A DNA stretch of 64,000 nucleotides, taken from Nitrospira sp. GTDB lineage: Bacteria; Nitrospirota; Nitrospiria; Nitrospirales; Nitrospiraceae. How positions within the stretch are numbered: position 1 is the stretch's first letter; every line of letters begins with the position of its first letter. The stretch lies in assembly GCA_024998625.1 (NCBI GenBank), contig JACOEL010000024.1:1-64000 (forward strand), written 5' to 3'. Shown here piece after piece: positions 49,923 through 57,603 of the stretch. Below the pieces are notes generated by a model, which searched no databases, was not told the DNA's origin, and saw only the letters and a program-made list of their open reading frames with translations. The translations under genes were made by a program, and so were the position numbers.

Positions 49923-50240
49923 CTATCGCTGCTGGCGGTCGTGCTTCTGACGAGCAATATGACGCGACGTGCGATCCTGCGCGCGATTGATCCGGGCCCG
50001 TTCTTTCTTCGTCACAACACCGTCCGATTTCGCCTTATCCTCCATCTTGTTGACGTGTTCCTGCTGGTTGTTCAAGCGATTAGCTTCACGTTCGTTCAAC
50101 TGACCGCTGGCAATTCCCTGATCGATCCGTTTCTCTTGATTGGCCTGCCGCTGATCGATCCTGGGCGTCTCCGCCTGCGCAAACACCAACGACGTGGCAC
50201 ACACCGACAACAACGCCGCGCCCCACATCACCTGCTTCAT
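49923..50240 (-). CDS. small exported charged protein
   Basis: A 105-residue protein with a signal peptide (MKQVMWGAALLSVCATSLVF) and a mature part made of charged, Gln/Asn/Arg-rich helices (RIDQRQANQEKRIDQGIASG, REANRLNNQQEHVNKMEDKA, SDGVVTKKERARINRAQDRT). The pattern suggests short paired helices in the periplasm. No catalytic motif. GGAGG with a four-base gap precedes ATG 50240. Similar small proteins are common in related genomes, but the function is unknown. Confidence 0.75.
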   Translation of the reverse strand: MKQVMWGAALLSVCATSLVFAQAETPRIDQRQANQEKRIDQGIASGQLNEREANRLNNQQEHVNKMEDKAKSDGVVTKKERARINRAQDRTSRHIARQKHDRQQR

Positions 50241-50380
50241 ACGTCCTCCTTTGGTTGCCCCCGCTGCACTGTCATCCGTTTCAACGTACAAGGACGCCGG
50301 CTGGTTGACAATCGAAATGGCGGTTTGAACGGAAGCGAGAGAACAATGTCACAGACAGACAATGCGGGATGGAGATGCAA

Positions 50381-51079
50381 TCAGCGGATATCCTGAAAAA
50401 AGACGCGTGGGAGATACGGCAGCTTGAATTCCACATGTAAAATGATCAGCAAGACGCGAAGAAAACTCCGCCAGATCCCCATCTTGAGAAACTTGCGGGC
50501 ATCCGTGACGACCGGGGGTGAGAGAAGAATGGGCGTGGTGACTGTCAGCAAATTTTCACCGAAAGCCACGTCTTCCAGAATGGGCCGATCTGGAAATCCT
50601 CCAAGCCGCTCGAACAAGGCCTTCCGGATGAATAAGGCTTGATCGCCGTAAATAATATGGCTCCTGACACAGCGAAAATTGTCGAGCCAGGAGATCATCC
50701 GGAGCCGCCAGTCCGACCCTGAGAATCGGTGCTGGAATCCGCCCGCCTGGACGGCTGGATTCAGGTCCAACGCATGAAGCCGATTCAGCGCATCGACGGG
50801 TAACAGCGTATCGGCATGCAGAAAGAGCAACCACTCGCCGGAAGCCAGTTTCGCGCCCGCATTCATTTGGGAGGCCCGGCCTTTGGGCGCCGTCAGGAGG
50901 ATGAGCGGGGCCGGCAATCGACTATTGACCGGCCAGCGCCGAACGATCTCGCAGGTTCGATCGTGGCTTCCTCCATCAACCACGATCACTTCATACGACC
51001 CGGCTTGTTCGAACAACTGTCGGAGTGTGGCTGGCAGCGCTCGCTCTTCATTGTAAGCGGGAATCACGATGGAGATCAT
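50381..51079 (-). CDS. TIGR04283-type glycosyltransferase
   Basis: A 232-residue family-2 glycosyltransferase of the rSAM/selenodomain-associated (TIGR04283) kind. It starts ISIVIPAYNEERALPATLRQ, holds VIVVDGGSHDRTCEIVRRWP, the metal-binding LLFLHADTLLPVDAL and the later acid in GGFPDRPILEDVAFGENL. It would move a sugar onto a small molecule in the cytoplasm. ATG 51079 overlaps the stop of the ferritin-like gene. It is the last gene of a four-gene operon. Confidence 0.88.
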   Translation of the reverse strand: MISIVIPAYNEERALPATLRQLFEQAGSYEVIVVDGGSHDRTCEIVRRWPVNSRLPAPLILLTAPKGRASQMNAGAKLASGEWLLFLHADTLLPVDALNRLHALDLNPAVQAGGFQHRFSGSDWRLRMISWLDNFRCVRSHIIYGDQALFIRKALFERLGGFPDRPILEDVAFGENLLTVTTPILLSPPVVTDARKFLKMGIWRSFLRVLLIILHVEFKLPYLPRVFFQDIR

Positions 51080-51711
51080 GCCGTCAACCAAACGGGCAGG
51101 AAGGTACGTACATCGGCGGCCCAGGCAGACGCGTCCTCCTCGATCGTCTCGAAGAGATCGCAGAGCGTCAACACCATCGAGTCAGTCAATGCCAGATAGT
51201 CCTGCGTGCGCAGACGAAGCGTCTCCAGCTCTCTGTGTCCATCAACCATCGCTCGCTCCAACACACGCCGCCCGAAGTCATGGTGAGCCTCTTCCTGGTG
51301 CAGCAGGACCCGGCGCAATCGGCGAAACGGCGCCTGCCGCTTTTCAAGGCCGCCCTCAATCCGGGTCAGAATCGCCTCCCCCAGTCCTTCGAGGATCACC
51401 TGCTCAGCCAGAATACTCTCCAGCCAATCGCCACGTTCAAGCGCCTCAGTGAGAAGCCTGCGGAAGTCTTCGAGCGCCGGCAGGAATGGAGCATCGCCGA
51501 GGTGGCGTGGCGCGAGCCAGCCGATGGCGCCACGAAAGACCACGGCATGCATCGCCTCCTGACGTGCCTGGGTCGTGAGAAAGCGCCGGGCCTTCGAGTC
51601 GGGAGCCAACGCCGCCTGGCTCTGCGCACAGAGGTGTGCCATCCGTTCGCCATGTTCAAGAAACGTCAGCAGCCGAGCAATGGGGACTCGTTCACCAGGC
51701 AACACCACCAT
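51076..51711 (-). CDS. ferritin-like di-iron protein, uncharacterised
   Basis: A 211-residue all-helical protein with a spacing of Glu and ExxH motifs that fits a di-iron four-helix bundle: Glu19/Glu22, QEAMHAVV (Glu52, His55), Glu108-112 in VILEGLGEAIL, and HQEEAHHDFG (Glu140/141, His143/144). It could be an oxygenase, oxidase or oxygen scavenger. No named family recognised. AAGGAG precedes ATG 51711 by 6 bases. Its neighbours are DUF547 upstream and a glycosyltransferase downstream. Confidence 0.7.
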   Translation of the reverse strand: MVVLPGERVPIARLLTFLEHGERMAHLCAQSQAALAPDSKARRFLTTQARQEAMHAVVFRGAIGWLAPRHLGDAPFLPALEDFRRLLTEALERGDWLESILAEQVILEGLGEAILTRIEGGLEKRQAPFRRLRRVLLHQEEAHHDFGRRVLERAMVDGHRELETLRLRTQDYLALTDSMVLTLCDLFETIEEDASAWAADVRTFLPVWLTA

Positions 51712-51722
51712 GCATAACTCCT

Positions 51723-52496
51723 TCAGTACTGCGGGGACGGTCCATTCAAATGCCAGTCGTAGTCGAGAAACTCCACGGTGTAGTTGCCGGCCAGAAGGTC
51801 CTGCTTAAGCGACGGATCTTGCACATACTCCCCGACATACCCCAGGACTGATCCTGAACGAGCCTCGAAATCTTTGGCAAACCATTTGAAAATCATCGAC
51901 AACGAGGCCACTTTACTCGATCGGTCAAAACGATTGCGCAATGGGTCATTCACAAACTCCCTCGTGACCCGATTCAGCTGCTCATCGAGGTGCTGCCCCT
52001 CGAACGCCCACGATTGGAGTTTCGGGCAGGAGGCTGAAGCGCAGACGATAGCAAAATGTACGCGCGGTTCGTGAAACTGGGCGATAAGAATCTCCCGCTC
52101 CAGATTGTAGAGATTCACCGGCTGCCCACCAACAGAATACTCCCGCGCGATGAAGTATCGGTATCGGCCGAACAACGTGTCCGGAGAATACCCATCCAGA
52201 ATGCCCGTGACGGCAAAGGCATTGTACGCATTGATCCAGAACGCCAACCGGTCTCCAACCGACAAGCGACCCGGATCCGCTCGATTCAACAACGCGACAT
52301 AGGACGGAAGCCGCCCCTGGCGGCGAATGGCCGGGTAATCAACGACGCCATCACGGACATGCGTGCCCAGTAGTTCGTGCCATACCCGATGGGAAAGCTG
52401 CTCAGGCGGGAGCGGGTCTGAGGGGGTGAAAGCGGTCGGTACGGTCGAACAGCCTCCCAACACGATCATCAGCGCTCCGATCAGGAAGTTTCGCAT
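51723..52496 (-). CDS. DUF547 lipoprotein
   Basis: A 257-residue protein with a lipobox (VLGGC, Cys16) and a DUF547 domain. The domain shows RLAFWINAYNAFAVTGILDG, FHEPRVHFAIVCASASCPKL with the conserved Cys/His region, and LDEQLNRVTREFVNDPL. DUF547 has a fold like cysteine peptidases/transglutaminases, but the function is unknown. GTG at 52499 is an alternative start. It lies between the radical SAM gene and the ferritin-like gene on the same strand. Confidence 0.85.
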   Translation of the reverse strand: MRNFLIGALMIVLGGCSTVPTAFTPSDPLPPEQLSHRVWHELLGTHVRDGVVDYPAIRRQGRLPSYVALLNRADPGRLSVGDRLAFWINAYNAFAVTGILDGYSPDTLFGRYRYFIAREYSVGGQPVNLYNLEREILIAQFHEPRVHFAIVCASASCPKLQSWAFEGQHLDEQLNRVTREFVNDPLRNRFDRSSKVASLSMIFKWFAKDFEARSGSVLGYVGEYVQDPSLKQDLLAGNYTVEFLDYDWHLNGPSPQY

Positions 52497-52509
52497 CACA
52501 ATCTTGCTC

Positions 52510-53538
52510 CTATTGGAATCGCACCGGAGTCCGCCATGCTGTGACCGGATGTCTCAGGATCGTCCCAACCACGCGCCCATCGAGACGGTTGCAGGAAGAG
52601 CAATCGGAACAGACTTGAATCTGGGTCCGGTCGAAGCGACCGAGGATCTCCCGGTAGGGCACCTCGCGCAGGTTCCCCACCCCCGGCATCGCCAAGCAGG
52701 CTGAGACCTGTCCGGACGCATCGATGGCAATGCTATACCGGCCGGCGTCACAGGGCTCGAGCCGTTCTCCCCGCAACCAGACGGCGCTGTCCTTGACGAA
52801 GTGTCGAAAATACCCGGGAGGAATCAGGTCCTCCTTCAGAAGCAACTCGAACAGCCCGGCGGCGGCTGAGCGGCCGTACATCAACCCGGTGTCCTCTTTG
52901 CCGTAGAGGCCCACGTTCCAGTGGTACGCTCCCACGACGGGAATAAAGCCCCGAGCCTTGGCGAATCGCACGACGTCGGGCACTTCTTCGCGATTGACCT
53001 CGCTCACGATACAGGTAAGGAACTTGGGGTAGGGATACTGTACCAGAAGACTAAGTCCAGCCAGGACCTGCGGTAACTGATCAGCCCCGCGAATCTGTCG
53101 GTAGCGAGCGCGATCGAGCGTGTCCAGGCTGACTGATAGAGGCAGGCGCAGTGAGGCAAACCGTGCGACGAGGTCGGTCGTGAGCCTGGTTCCATTCGTG
53201 ATCACGGTCACCTGCAACCCCAACAAGGAGAGGTCCGACAGAATGTCGACGAGGTCCGTGCGGAGGAGCGGCTCACCCCCCTGAACAAGCACGAACCTGA
53301 TGCCTTCGGTATAGAGCTGTCCAAAGATGCCCCGGATCTCCTCTCGCGTCAGTTCATATCGTCCCTGGTTCAGAGGAAGGTCGCAGTAGCCACAGGCGGA
53401 GTTGCAACGCAGGGTCACCTGAAACGTGGCAAGGACCGGCCGCCCCCGTAAAAGATTGGCCATGGGCCGGGCATGGGCTGAAATCATCGCAAAAGCGCGC
53501 TTCGCAGTCACCGTGAATCGCCTGCTCTGAGTGAGCAT
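52510..53538 (-). CDS. radical SAM/SPASM protein
   Basis: A 342-residue radical SAM enzyme. The cluster motif is CNSACGYC (Cys45, Cys49, Cys52), followed by VLVQGGEPLLRTDLVDILSD and TVITNGTRLTTDLV. The C-terminal third is a SPASM-like domain with Cys residues in EPCDAGRYSIAIDASGQVSA, CLAMPGVGNL and VCSDCSSCNRL. It resembles enzymes that modify peptides or add carbon or sulfur, but no peptide precursor gene was found next to it. Position suggests a step in the pathway with DUF547, ferritin-like and glycosyltransferase proteins. ATG 53538 is the best start. Confidence 0.88.
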   Translation of the reverse strand: MLTQSRRFTVTAKRAFAMISAHARPMANLLRGRPVLATFQVTLRCNSACGYCDLPLNQGRYELTREEIRGIFGQLYTEGIRFVLVQGGEPLLRTDLVDILSDLSLLGLQVTVITNGTRLTTDLVARFASLRLPLSVSLDTLDRARYRQIRGADQLPQVLAGLSLLVQYPYPKFLTCIVSEVNREEVPDVVRFAKARGFIPVVGAYHWNVGLYGKEDTGLMYGRSAAAGLFELLLKEDLIPPGYFRHFVKDSAVWLRGERLEPCDAGRYSIAIDASGQVSACLAMPGVGNLREVPYREILGRFDRTQIQVCSDCSSCNRLDGRVVGTILRHPVTAWRTPVRFQ

Positions 53539-53711
53539 CTTTGAACACCTGTTGCCATTTTCCTCCTGCCCCGGCACCCTCGGTTCAGCACAATGCGACA
53601 CAATCGGCACGAATCCAGGCAATTCTGCACTCCACGCAGTGGGTTTCCAGGCATACGGTTTGCTGACTAACTCTCGACACTGCAGCCTGACTCATCCCAG
53701 GGAGGATTGCT

Positions 53712-54125
53712 ATGAACACCAAGCGCCAGCACTCGATGCTCACTATCGCCACGGCCACCCTCGCCACCGTCGCTTTTGTCGTGGCACCGGTGTCGGCAAA
53801 GGACAGGGAGCAGGCCGGCAAACATTCGAATCATACGACCACCACCTCGGCAGCCGCGGCCGCCTCACTGCTGGGATCAATCCCTGAGCAACCCACAGCG
53901 CCGAAACCTGGGCAACATGACTCCAAACCGGGAGTCGCCTGGAAGACCGTGGGCGGCACCCTCAAAGAAATTCACGGCGAGACGTACACAGTCGAAGACT
54001 TCGATGGCAGCCAAATGAAGGTGCATATCGGACAGGGAACCAAGCACCTCCGGGGCAACAAAAAAGTGGGCGACACCATTCGGGCTGAAATCACCCACGG
54101 TGGCTTCGCAAATTCAATTCAATAA
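53712..54125 (+). CDS. exported small protein, hypothetical
   Basis: A 137-residue protein with a signal peptide (about 1-29, ending VSAKD) and a Thr/Ala/Pro-rich linker. The C-terminal 60 residues form a small beta domain: WKTVGGTLKEIHGETYTVED, FDGSQMKVHIGQGTKHLRG and GDTIRAEITHGGFANSIQ, like small OB- or SH3-like periplasmic folds. GGAGG precedes the ATG. It diverges from the radical SAM operon and ends at a strong hairpin. Function unknown. Confidence 0.75.
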   Translation: MNTKRQHSMLTIATATLATVAFVVAPVSAKDREQAGKHSNHTTTTSAAAAASLLGSIPEQPTAPKPGQHDSKPGVAWKTVGGTLKEIHGETYTVEDFDGSQMKVHIGQGTKHLRGNKKVGDTIRAEITHGGFANSIQ

Positions 54126-54166
54126 CCCCCTGACTCTGCGAACCCACATCAGCCCGCCGGTGTCCT

Positions 54167-54199
54167 GGGGAGGCCGACCCTGCACAGGTCGGCCTCCCC
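54167..54199. terminator. strong bidirectional hairpin terminator
   Basis: GGGGAGGCCGACC (54167-54179) and GGTCGGCCTCCCC (54187-54199) pair perfectly, 13 base pairs with a 7-base loop. It lies between the end of the small exported gene and the end of the convergent DUF3047 gene. It probably stops both. Confidence 0.7.
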
Positions 54200-54232
54200 G
54201 CCTTTCTCAGTTCCGGCAGTTCGCCCTCCCCG

Positions 54233-54982
54233 TCACTTCAACGCCTTGACGAAGACGATGTCACCGTAATAGGCCACGGCCCGTTCCCTCGTGTTATCGG
54301 TATCGCTCATGATTGCGACGCCGCTGATCGCCGGCGGCTCTTCGCCGAAGGCCAGTCGATAATCTTCATACACATTGCGTTCTTCCTCGACCCACGTGCC
54401 GATGCGCTGCGGCCCGCTCTCCACCACGATCATCTTCGCAAAGTCGGTAAAGGCATTGTCCACCACCGTCCCGACCGGGCTCATACCGTCCCAGATGTAG
54501 TTCAGTGCACCGATCGGAATATCACCGAACAGCGCCCGACCGGCCTGGTACTTCAATTTCCGTCCGAAACTCACCTTCGCGGGTTCATAGGCAAACGTAA
54601 TATAGAGGCGCGCCGGATAGTCATCACCGTCTTTGCGGTTCACATTGCCCTTCTGCAGCAGATTTTCCACCTTCCACCGCCAGCGCACGATCGGATACTC
54701 ACGCGGATCAATCGCCACGGCCTTGGTCAGGCCCGAGGCGGACGCCTCACTCACAGCCTTCACCACGGAAACCGGTCCGTCCTTCACCAGCTCGTATGTC
54801 GTGTGCCGGTCGATCTTTTTAAACGTCAACGGTGTCCATCCCTCGGGTAACGTGACACCTTCAGTTGCGATCGAAAACCGTCCGACTTCCAGCTTCGCAG
54901 AGCCCTGCGCATGGGCGACGATCACCGTGCCCGACAAGCATATGAACAGGACAATCCCGAGCCGCATCACCTGTCCCCTCAT
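54233..54982 (-). CDS. DUF3047 exported protein
   Basis: A 249-residue protein with a signal peptide (about 1-25) and a DUF3047 domain: VGRFSIATEGVTLPEGWTPL, IVRWRWKVENLLQKGNV, RKDGDDYPARLYITFAYEP, LNYIWDGMSPVGTVVDNAF and RNVYEDYRLAFGEEPPAI. The family is predicted to be periplasmic and beta-rich with no known role. It overlaps the stop of the disulfide oxidoreductase gene by ATGA, so the two are translated together. Confidence 0.85.
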   Translation of the reverse strand: MRGQVMRLGIVLFICLSGTVIVAHAQGSAKLEVGRFSIATEGVTLPEGWTPLTFKKIDRHTTYELVKDGPVSVVKAVSEASASGLTKAVAIDPREYPIVRWRWKVENLLQKGNVNRKDGDDYPARLYITFAYEPAKVSFGRKLKYQAGRALFGDIPIGALNYIWDGMSPVGTVVDNAFTDFAKMIVVESGPQRIGTWVEEERNVYEDYRLAFGEEPPAISGVAIMSDTDNTRERAVAYYGDIVFVKALK

Positions 54983-56565
54983 CGCCTCAACCAGGCAAAG
55001 AGCCTCGTTAACAGCATCTTGGTCCGCGGGGTAAAGTGCGCCTTGCGCCAGAGGTTGACGACCTTCTTGTTGACTTCCGCCCGGGTGGGATAAGGATGGA
55101 TCGTGGCGGCGATCGTTTTCGCACCGGCGCCGGCCTTCATCAACACGGAGAACTCATTGATCATGTCGCCGGCATGCGTCGCTACAATCGTCGCCCCGAG
55201 GATCTTATCGGTCCCCTTCTGGATATGGACACGGGCAAACCCTTCCTCCTCACCATCGAGGATGGCTCGATCCACTTCATCGAGCTTGTAGGTATAGGTC
55301 TCCACCTCAAGGCCCTTCTTCTTGGCATCCGCCTCGTACAGGCCGACATGAGCGACTTCCGGCTCGGTAAACGTGCACCAGGGCATGATGAGCGAGTCCA
55401 TGCTGGCATAGCCCAGCCCCAAAGGATGCGGAAACAACGCATTTTGAATGACGATCTGCGCCATCGCATCGGCGGCATGGGTAAACTTGTAGCGGGAACA
55501 AATATCACCGGCGGCATAGATGCGTGAGTTCGTCGCCTGAAGACGGTCGTTCACTTTCACTCCGGTCTTGTCGTACTCAACCCCGACCACATCCAACCCC
55601 AGACCATGAACATTCGGCGTACGCCCCACGCCGACCAGAATTTCGTCCACGGTGACGTCGTATTGTTGTCCGTGTGAATTGACGGCCAGCTTCTTGCCAA
55701 CAGCGGTCTTGGTGATGGACAGATCCTTCCCACAACAGAGGAGCGTGACTCCATCGCGGACCATGGACTGATGAACGATGTCCGCCGCATCCCGATCTTC
55801 ATTCGGCATGATGCCATGCATCGCCTCGATGAGATAGACTTGGCTGCCGAAGCGAGCAAACGCCTGCGCCAGCTCGCACCCGATCGGTCCTGCGCCGATC
55901 ACACCAATACGGGCCGGCAGCTCCGTCAGCGAGAAGACGGTTTCGTTCGTGAGATACCCTGCCTCTTCCAACCCTGGAGTGGCGGGAGCGGAAGCCCTTG
56001 CTCCCGTACAAATCGCAGCCTTGACGAAGGACAACGTCCGATTTCCAGCCGGCCCTTCTACCTGCACCGTATCCTGTCCGGAAAACCTGGCCTGACCGAT
56101 ATAGACATCGACACCCAGCGACTTGTAACGGTGGGCGGAGTCGGTATGGCTGATCCTGGCCCGCAACTTTCTCATTCTGGCCATCGCCGCCCCAAAGTCA
56201 TATTTCACCCCCGGCGGGATCTGCAGGCCGAACTTCGACGCATCGCGCAATTCGGCCCAAGCATTGGCCGCACGAATCAGCGCCTTGGAGGGCACGCACC
56301 CAACGTTCAGACAATCGCCTCCCATCAAATGGCGTTCGACCAGCGCGACCTTTGCGCCCAGTCCAGCCGCGATGACTGCCGTGACCAACCCCGCCGTACC
56401 GGCTCCGATGACGACGATGTTATAGCGGCCGTTGGGGTCGGGATTCACCCAATTGGACGGATGCACGTTTTCAACCAACTTCTGGTTATGTTCGTCGTTG
56501 GGCAGAACCAGACTCTCGACATCGGTATTCATTGAATACAGGCTCTCCCCGTGGTGAGTAGGCAT
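54979..56565 (-). CDS. mercuric-reductase-like FAD disulfide oxidoreductase
   Basis: A 528-residue class I flavin disulfide oxidoreductase. It shows YNIVVIGAGTAGLVTAVIA (FAD), the redox-active CLNVGCVPSK (Cys85, Cys90), IGVIGAGPIGCELAQAFARF (NAD(P)H), YAAGDICSRYKFTHAADAMA and the dimer-domain HPYPTRAEVNKKV with its catalytic His. The mercury-binding N-terminal domain and C-terminal Cys pair of true MerA are absent, so mercury reduction is unlikely. Its neighbour upstream is a TVP38-like membrane protein, a pair found together or fused in many genomes; a role in redox control at the membrane is inferred. Confidence 0.9.
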   Translation of the reverse strand: MPTHHGESLYSMNTDVESLVLPNDEHNQKLVENVHPSNWVNPDPNGRYNIVVIGAGTAGLVTAVIAAGLGAKVALVERHLMGGDCLNVGCVPSKALIRAANAWAELRDASKFGLQIPPGVKYDFGAAMARMRKLRARISHTDSAHRYKSLGVDVYIGQARFSGQDTVQVEGPAGNRTLSFVKAAICTGARASAPATPGLEEAGYLTNETVFSLTELPARIGVIGAGPIGCELAQAFARFGSQVYLIEAMHGIMPNEDRDAADIVHQSMVRDGVTLLCCGKDLSITKTAVGKKLAVNSHGQQYDVTVDEILVGVGRTPNVHGLGLDVVGVEYDKTGVKVNDRLQATNSRIYAAGDICSRYKFTHAADAMAQIVIQNALFPHPLGLGYASMDSLIMPWCTFTEPEVAHVGLYEADAKKKGLEVETYTYKLDEVDRAILDGEEEGFARVHIQKGTDKILGATIVATHAGDMINEFSVLMKAGAGAKTIAATIHPYPTRAEVNKKVVNLWRKAHFTPRTKMLLTRLFAWLRR

Positions 56566-56620
56566 GGGCGTCGCCTTTCCATCTGTAGGCTTCGATCTCT
56601 GTCAGGAACCCTCGGTCTGT

Positions 56621-57358
56621 TCAGGCCGGCTTACCGGCGAATTTCTTATAGAGGATAGGCACCAACGCCAGGAGTCCCAACAGCGTAAACGCCATCAACA
56701 CATTGGGCGAGGCGATTTCCTTGAGCGAATTGATCGTACCGAGTTGGCGGCCTGCATAGGCAAAGACGAAACTACCGGGAATGATGCCCAGAGAGGTCGC
56801 CGCCATGTAAGTCCCGACGCTGACCCTGGTTAGTCCCGATACCATATTGACCAGAAAAAACGGGAACAACGGAATCAGACGCAGGGTTATGAGATAACTG
56901 AACGCGTTCTTGGCAAACCCCTCTTGAATAGGACCCAAGCGATTGCCGAATTTCTGTTCAACCCAGTCTCTCAGAAGATACCGTGCGACCAGAAACGCCA
57001 GGGTCGCTCCCACGGTGGCGCCAACATTCACATACAACGTCCCCAGCACACTACCGAAGAGAAACCCGCCCGCCAGGGTCATGATCGCCCCGCCTGGCAA
57101 CGAGAGCCCGACGACCGTACAATAGGCGACGATAAAAATGACCACCGCCATTGCATAGTTAGCTTCCGTGAACGCGAGCAGATGATCCCGGTTGGATTTG
57201 AGTCCATCGAGCGACAAGTAGTGGCCAAGATCGAAATAGAAGAATGCGGCGATTCCGAGGCCGACTGAAAGCCCCAACAATAATTTGCTGAGGCCGGCAT
57301 TTTTCGGCGCTGTGGACGATTCTACAGAAGTGGTCATTGCGCTCTGAATCGGTATCAT
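56621..57358 (-). CDS. TVP38/TMEM64-family (VTT-domain) membrane protein
   Basis: A 245-residue inner-membrane protein with about six helices and a VTT (DedA/SNARE-associated) domain: VVGLSLPGGAIMTLAGGFLF, GTLYVNVGATVGATLAFLVA, ITLRLIPLFPFFLVNMVSGL and IIPGSFVFAYAGRQLG. Such proteins help move or flip lipids or polyprenyl carriers. GAGGAG lies 5 bases before ATG 57358. It is the first gene of an operon with the disulfide oxidoreductase and DUF3047 genes. Confidence 0.88.
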   Translation of the reverse strand: MIPIQSAMTTSVESSTAPKNAGLSKLLLGLSVGLGIAAFFYFDLGHYLSLDGLKSNRDHLLAFTEANYAMAVVIFIVAYCTVVGLSLPGGAIMTLAGGFLFGSVLGTLYVNVGATVGATLAFLVARYLLRDWVEQKFGNRLGPIQEGFAKNAFSYLITLRLIPLFPFFLVNMVSGLTRVSVGTYMAATSLGIIPGSFVFAYAGRQLGTINSLKEIASPNVLMAFTLLGLLALVPILYKKFAGKPA

Positions 57359-57603
57359 GGTGTCTCCTCGCTCATGTGTCAATCGTTCGCTCACCTGAAC
57401 GGACAGTACACCCCGTTCAGTCGAAAGAATGTGGCCGACCTTACAAAGAGACTTGCCTGCTTGTCACCACACAGAGCTGTATACGGATGGCCCGGTAAAA
57501 TAGATTGCCGACGCCTCACCGTTCTCATCGACGGCCGGTGCCCCTCAAGGACCCGTCTTGTCCCTCCGAAAGAACTCTTGAAGACAGGGTACCAGTGGAG
57601 GTA

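Follow-up and report, generated by a model that had tools for sequence, protein, structure and literature searches.

What do four tightly packed genes of a Nitrospira-type genome (4.42 Mb) make together, and to which known pathway are they related? The window, that is, the whole stretch of 64,000 nucleotides that was analysed, carries on its minus strand at 50381-53538 the genes of a radical SAM protein (rSAM), a DUF547 lipoprotein, a ferritin-like protein (FER) and a glycosyltransferase (GT). Their arrangement was checked against the open reading frames, and the locus comprises the following features, where ADO denotes the aldehyde-deformylating oxygenases.

50381-51079, minus strand: GT2 glycosyltransferase (ATG at 51079), TIGR04283 family, a module-specific paralogue
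51076-51711, minus strand: FER, with an ADO-like predicted fold and a candidate di-iron site, outside any Pfam or NCBIfam family
51723-52499, minus strand: DUF547 lipoprotein (PF04784, 9e-26, 90.7 bits), lipobox GGCS
52510-53538, minus strand: rSAM (ATG at 53538, stop at 52510), Radical_SAM CX3CX2C and a C-terminal twitch-like auxiliary-cluster domain
53539-53711, no strand: divergent intergenic region, no conserved small ORF
53712-54125, plus strand: small secreted protein of no family, divergent from rSAM; a conserved neighbour of uncertain membership
54233-54982, minus strand: DUF3047 secreted protein (PF11249, 7e-79), upstream in the same island
54979-56565, minus strand: MerA-like FAD oxidoreductase (NF004991, 776 bits, cut-off 620)
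56621-57394, minus strand: VTT/TVP38 membrane protein (PF09335, 4e-27)

The gaps between rSAM and DUF547 and between DUF547 and FER are 10 nt and 11 nt, respectively, and the GT start overlaps the FER stop as ATGA, so that the four one-strand genes lie just as the initial annotation had placed them. Its outline of the operon holds for these four but left out the VTT, FAD oxidoreductase and DUF3047 genes, which lie upstream on the same strand, separated from rSAM by the one small divergent gene. These three belong to the gene set too, and they provide the link to the ArsS loci discussed below. No sigma-70-like promoter was matched in 53539-53711. The initial annotation had seen no precursor peptide, and the small-ORF search that it proposed agrees for this same interval: a precursor there was ruled out because the reading frames differ among six relatives. 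The small protein at 53712-54125 adjoins rSAM in most loci; it was rejected as a precursor since it occurs in loci devoid of rSAM (L033, L085) and is missing from other loci.

Conservation of the neighbourhood was assessed by a scan with a single FER sequence as query, which samples Nitrospirota and not distant relatives outside that phylum. The scan yielded 37 loci, nearly all labelled Nitrospira, and the order rSAM-DUF547-FER-GT recurs in 33 of them. The other four either have no rSAM (L016, L033) or lie on contigs that end before GT (L007, L034), and some assemblies contain broken rSAM or FER copies (e.g. L006, L010, L011, L036-L039). Of 245 Nitrospirota genomes, 37 have FER and 29 have rSAM, the latter always together with FER; within the order, FER is present in 106 of 235 genomes. 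DUF547 and the FER-linked TIGR04283 GT accompany FER in 15/15 FER-positive genomes of the genus and occur in 0/10 FER-negative ones (Fisher 3e-7); like the other conservation counts, this value is uncorrected for kinship. The shared order, the invariable presence of FER with rSAM and the all-or-none pattern in the genus argue that the co-occurrence is not due to chance, and the reading of the locus as a conserved, uncharacterised operon of biosynthetic appearance is upheld. FER and GT form the steadiest pair, rSAM has been lost in several lines, and DUF3047 is syntenic in most related loci. A search of plasmids returned one weak match.

Conservation of this kind could also arise if unrelated housekeeping or stress genes were held together by inherited order and shared no common product. 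Most of the data do come from one taxonomic order, and loss of rSAM leaves FER, DUF547 and GT in place. However, these three genes are all-or-none across the genus and are retained through rearranged gene orders in the sister family f3, which makes mere inheritance of gene order very improbable, the least probable of the explanations considered here.

Several loci lie outside the general pattern. One locus labelled Verrucomicrobiota (L007) and two labelled Nitrosospira (L016, L024) contain Nitrospira-like module genes with FER identities of 94% and 69-70%, respectively; these labels are probably binning or labelling errors. The FER copies of genus g12 (L096, L134, L135, L138) have no DUF547, GT or rSAM alongside. 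A remote relative of FER with 28% identity (L095 7128-7799, genome G073), from a different family of the phylum, stands alone among unrelated genes.

The window rSAM matches the Pfam Radical_SAM family with 76.9 bits (2.7e-21). It had been called a radical SAM/SPASM enzyme, of which the first half stands. The SPASM match of 21.4 bits falls just below the Pfam cut-off of 21.5, and the C-terminal region contains four cysteines, invariant in 27 homologues, arranged as C264-X12-G-X4-C282 ... C311-X5-C317, a pattern seen in twitch domains. Judged by sequence, a 4-Cys twitch domain thus fits better than a full 7-Cys SPASM domain. No NCBIfam equivalog model is passed; the nearest are MoaA, NirJ and PqqE, none of them near its cut-off. 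The closest sequences in the PDB are those of tetraether lipid synthase and SkfB. Two specific assignments were rejected, ArsS (TIGR04167; 25.2 bits versus a cut-off of 300) and the antiviral viperin, for which the PADLOC matches are at the generic rSAM level (55 bits).

The AF2 model of FER is all-helical (pLDDT 86). Comparison with the PDB placed ADO structures in all of the best 21 matches, with Z scores of 20-23 and 200-201 of the 210 residues aligned (22-23 and 201 for the nearest); R2-like ligand-binding oxidases come next with a Z score of ~19. Foldseek alone gave E values of ~1e-3. Residues E22, E52, H55, E108, E140 and H143 (numbered from M1) are invariant in 43 sequences of two families and form the pattern E-X29-E-X2-H-X52-E-X31-E-X2-H. 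The arrangement E, ExxH, E, ExxH, with four carboxylate and two histidine residues on helices, is the mark of di-iron ferritin-like oxygenases, and FER shares it, with a spacing similar to that of the ADO ligands. The relative with 28% identity keeps all of these candidate ligands except E22, which is replaced by Asp. The predicted fold together with the invariant six-residue motif makes FER a good di-iron candidate, so the earlier guess of a possible di-iron protein has been sharpened to an ADO-like predicted fold with six candidate ligands. Nevertheless, neither profile nor partner gene identifies it as an ADO: its identity to the cyanobacterial enzymes is ~16-20%, the ADO family profile is absent from the Pfam matches of 27 FER members (E 0.1) and from the NCBIfam matches, a PDB sequence search with the FER profile found no relatives, and the gene neighbourhood is different. 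On the evidence of the model, FER is a previously undescribed family of ADO-like, putatively di-iron proteins.

The resemblance to ADO bears on a second alternative, lipid or hydrocarbon chemistry, in which FER would be an aldehyde-deformylating or related oxygenase acting on a lipid and GT would make a glycolipid. The ADO-like fold over the whole length of FER and the similar spacing of the six ligands speak for it. However, acyl-ACP reductase (TIGR04058) has no match in the genome, although the same model does match in Synechococcus; moreover, FER lacks an ADO family match and its fold also resembles the R2-like oxidases (Z 19). This alternative is considered very unlikely.

The DUF547 protein is the only one of its family in the genome. 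It contains a conserved VCASxSCP motif, and C153, C158 and H148 are invariant. The initial annotation had ascribed to it a cysteine-peptidase-like fold, for which no backing was obtained: the AF2 model (pLDDT 87) has an unrelated protein as its best PDB match, with a Z score of only 5.3, there is no peptidase-like chain among the aligned PDB matches, and a PDB sequence search with the DUF547 profile found no relatives. The assignment of GT to the TIGR04283 family of the rSAM/selenodomain-associated set proved correct (213.5 bits, above the cut-off of 182), though the GTs of the module group as paralogues in a single clade (100/98), far from the canonical TIGR04283 proteins (branch 2.0). The canonical TIGR04283-TIGR04282 pair of the same genome lies on contig C17. 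A third TIGR04283-type gene, far from both other clades, is near-identical in two Nitrospira genomes (L165 8735-9403, L166 8893-9558). The canonical pair also occurs in two genomes of family f4 (G030, G033) where no protein passes the ArsS cut-off, and hence its tie to ArsS is not a strict one.

According to a passage of PMC12159101, which cites Cheng 2021, ArsS adenosylates arsenic in arsenosugar biosynthesis; the part ascribed to TIGR04283 in that synthesis is taken from its database name. Plasmid loci of other phyla, a small, hand-picked and non-random sample of six DUF547 loci and a few FAD oxidoreductase loci, place homologues of the window genes around ArsS. In Acinetobacter portensis the order is ArsS - VTT/FAD oxidoreductase - DUF547 - TIGR04283 - TIGR04282, and in Burkholderia glumae it is DUF547 - rSAM ... 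ArsS ... TIGR04283 - TIGR04282 ... VTT/FAD - DoxX - DUF2063 - DUF692 - DUF2282. The Roseomonas plasmid has a DUF547 homologue with VTT-FAD oxidoreductase near ArsS and TIGR04282/TIGR04283, Hymenobacter has ArsS ... TIGR04283 - DUF547 and no VTT, Cupriavidus KK10 has ArsM - ArsS - FAD - VTT - TIGR04283 - TIGR04282 ... DUF547, Pseudanabaena has VTT - FAD - ArsM - VTT - ArsS, and Pseudoalteromonas has VTT/FAD-DUF547 in the absence of ArsS. Overall, ArsS or TIGR04282/TIGR04283 is found close to DUF547 in five of the six plasmid loci of this gene, and the VTT and FAD oxidoreductase are often fused in the DUF547/ArsS loci of other phyla. The companion set of VTT, FAD oxidoreductase, DUF547 and TIGR04283 was met together in the window and in plasmid ArsS loci, and the relative order of its genes in the window is that of Acinetobacter portensis, with identities to the Acinetobacter proteins of 37% for GT and 29% for DUF547. 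The TrsS-like rSAM of the Burkholderia glumae and Roseomonas plasmids likewise adjoins DUF547, there in an ArsS/TIGR04282 island, but it is a protein of 465 aa with 26% identity to the window rSAM over the core only.

A Pfam and NCBIfam scan of the nine proteins of 49923-57394 returned no match to ArsS, ArsM or TIGR04282, whereas the locus has its own rSAM and its ADO-like di-iron candidate, and its GT belongs to the separate clade. The genome does not need the window locus for the missing functions: on contig C17, ArsS occurs with ArsM-like methyltransferases, Acr3 and ArsC in addition to the TIGR04283-TIGR04282 pair noted above, and on contig C3 its neighbours are a phosphate transporter and a methyltransferase. 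DUF547 is found in none of the Nitrospirales ArsS loci examined. With ArsS and the canonical pair elsewhere in the genome and a GT clade of its own, the window operon appears to be a paralogous variant and not the arsenosugar locus itself. Since VTT-FAD oxidoreductase-DUF547-TIGR04283 adjoins ArsS in other phyla, the preferred reading, to which we assign a probability of about 0.5, takes the locus to be a version, specific to Nitrospirales, of the ArsS companion set found there.

If so, rSAM would carry out a radical modification of a sugar- or nucleoside-type intermediate, the putative di-iron protein FER would oxidise the modified intermediate with O2, and GT would attach it, at the membrane, to an acceptor. 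The product would then pass to the VTT protein and the DUF547 lipoprotein, acting at the membrane or beyond it, and the pathway as a whole may help the cell to respond to metal or metalloid stress. More tentatively, the twitch-type rSAM could work with FER, as an ADO-like di-iron oxygenase from a family not described before, in a new pathway that nitrifying Nitrospira would possess beside their arsenosugar and bufferin stress systems; its product would be either a glycosylated metabolite, possibly containing a metalloid or sulfur, or a metal-binding peptide in modified form.

The main rival to the ArsS-companion variant is peptide tailoring, because in the sister family f3 the same genes adjoin a bufferin-2/MNIO cluster. 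Bufferin core genes were defined as in PMC12452194. In this alternative, a secreted Cys-rich peptide or lipopeptide resembling bufferin-2 would be modified or processed by rSAM, FER, GT and DUF547 in concert with MNIO and DUF2063, and Nitrospira would have kept the tailoring set with a precursor that is unlinked or different. The f3 module adjoins BufA2, MNIO (PF05114) and/or DUF2063 in varying gene order (L091, L092, L093, L108, L109, L116-L119, L142), and the precursor beside it is a six-Cys bufferin-2-like lipoprotein. FER is present in 10/10 of the f3 genomes with that MNIO type and linked in nine, and rSAM goes with the linked MNIO (p 0.012, uncorrected for kinship). VTT-FAD-DUF3047 directly adjoins BufA2 in two genomes (G035, G032), and a second DUF3047-FAD-VTT set adjoins the bufferin-1 locus of the window's own genome. 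Nonetheless, none of BufA2, MNIO and DUF2063 lies near the window module, the window has neither MNIO nor a precursor, small ORFs are not conserved at 53539-53711, BufA2 has no match in its own genome or in 28 other genomes of the genus searched, and many f3 FER-GT loci have no MNIO. Furthermore, bufferin gene clusters also occur within ArsS islands, as in Burkholderia glumae, where one island holds both ArsS and a bufferin-1 cluster, so that the bufferin link may reflect either a shared metal-stress island or direct tailoring of a peptide. Direct tailoring is thus regarded as possible but doubtful.

The gene set described here is a defined and testable one in globally important nitrifiers. 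It ties together two little-understood stress systems, the ArsS companion genes and the MNIO bufferins, supplies the undescribed ADO-like, putatively di-iron family and offers a clue from gene context to the roles of the widespread VTT, FAD oxidoreductase, DUF547 and TIGR04283 genes. A literature search, in which coverage of ArsS gene sets was thin, found no paper that links DUF547 with radical SAM proteins or names TIGR04283.

An MNIO linkage in one Nitrospiraceae genome (G143) was set aside because unknown bases lie inside the join and the FAD oxidoreductase is cut. At L141 ~14100, the FAD oxidoreductase of the module is connected to a bufferin-1 locus through a stretch of unknown bases, possibly a misjoin through repeated FAD oxidoreductase genes. 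The bufferin-1-type locus of the window's own genome (L101 5995-8612; G000:C3, ~23-26 kb) comprises a DUF2282-like precursor, MNIO, a DUF2063-like protein and DoxX. It is followed by a molybdopterin oxidoreductase, a cytochrome and the second DUF3047-FAD oxidoreductase-VTT set, and an ArsS gene lies ~17 kb away.
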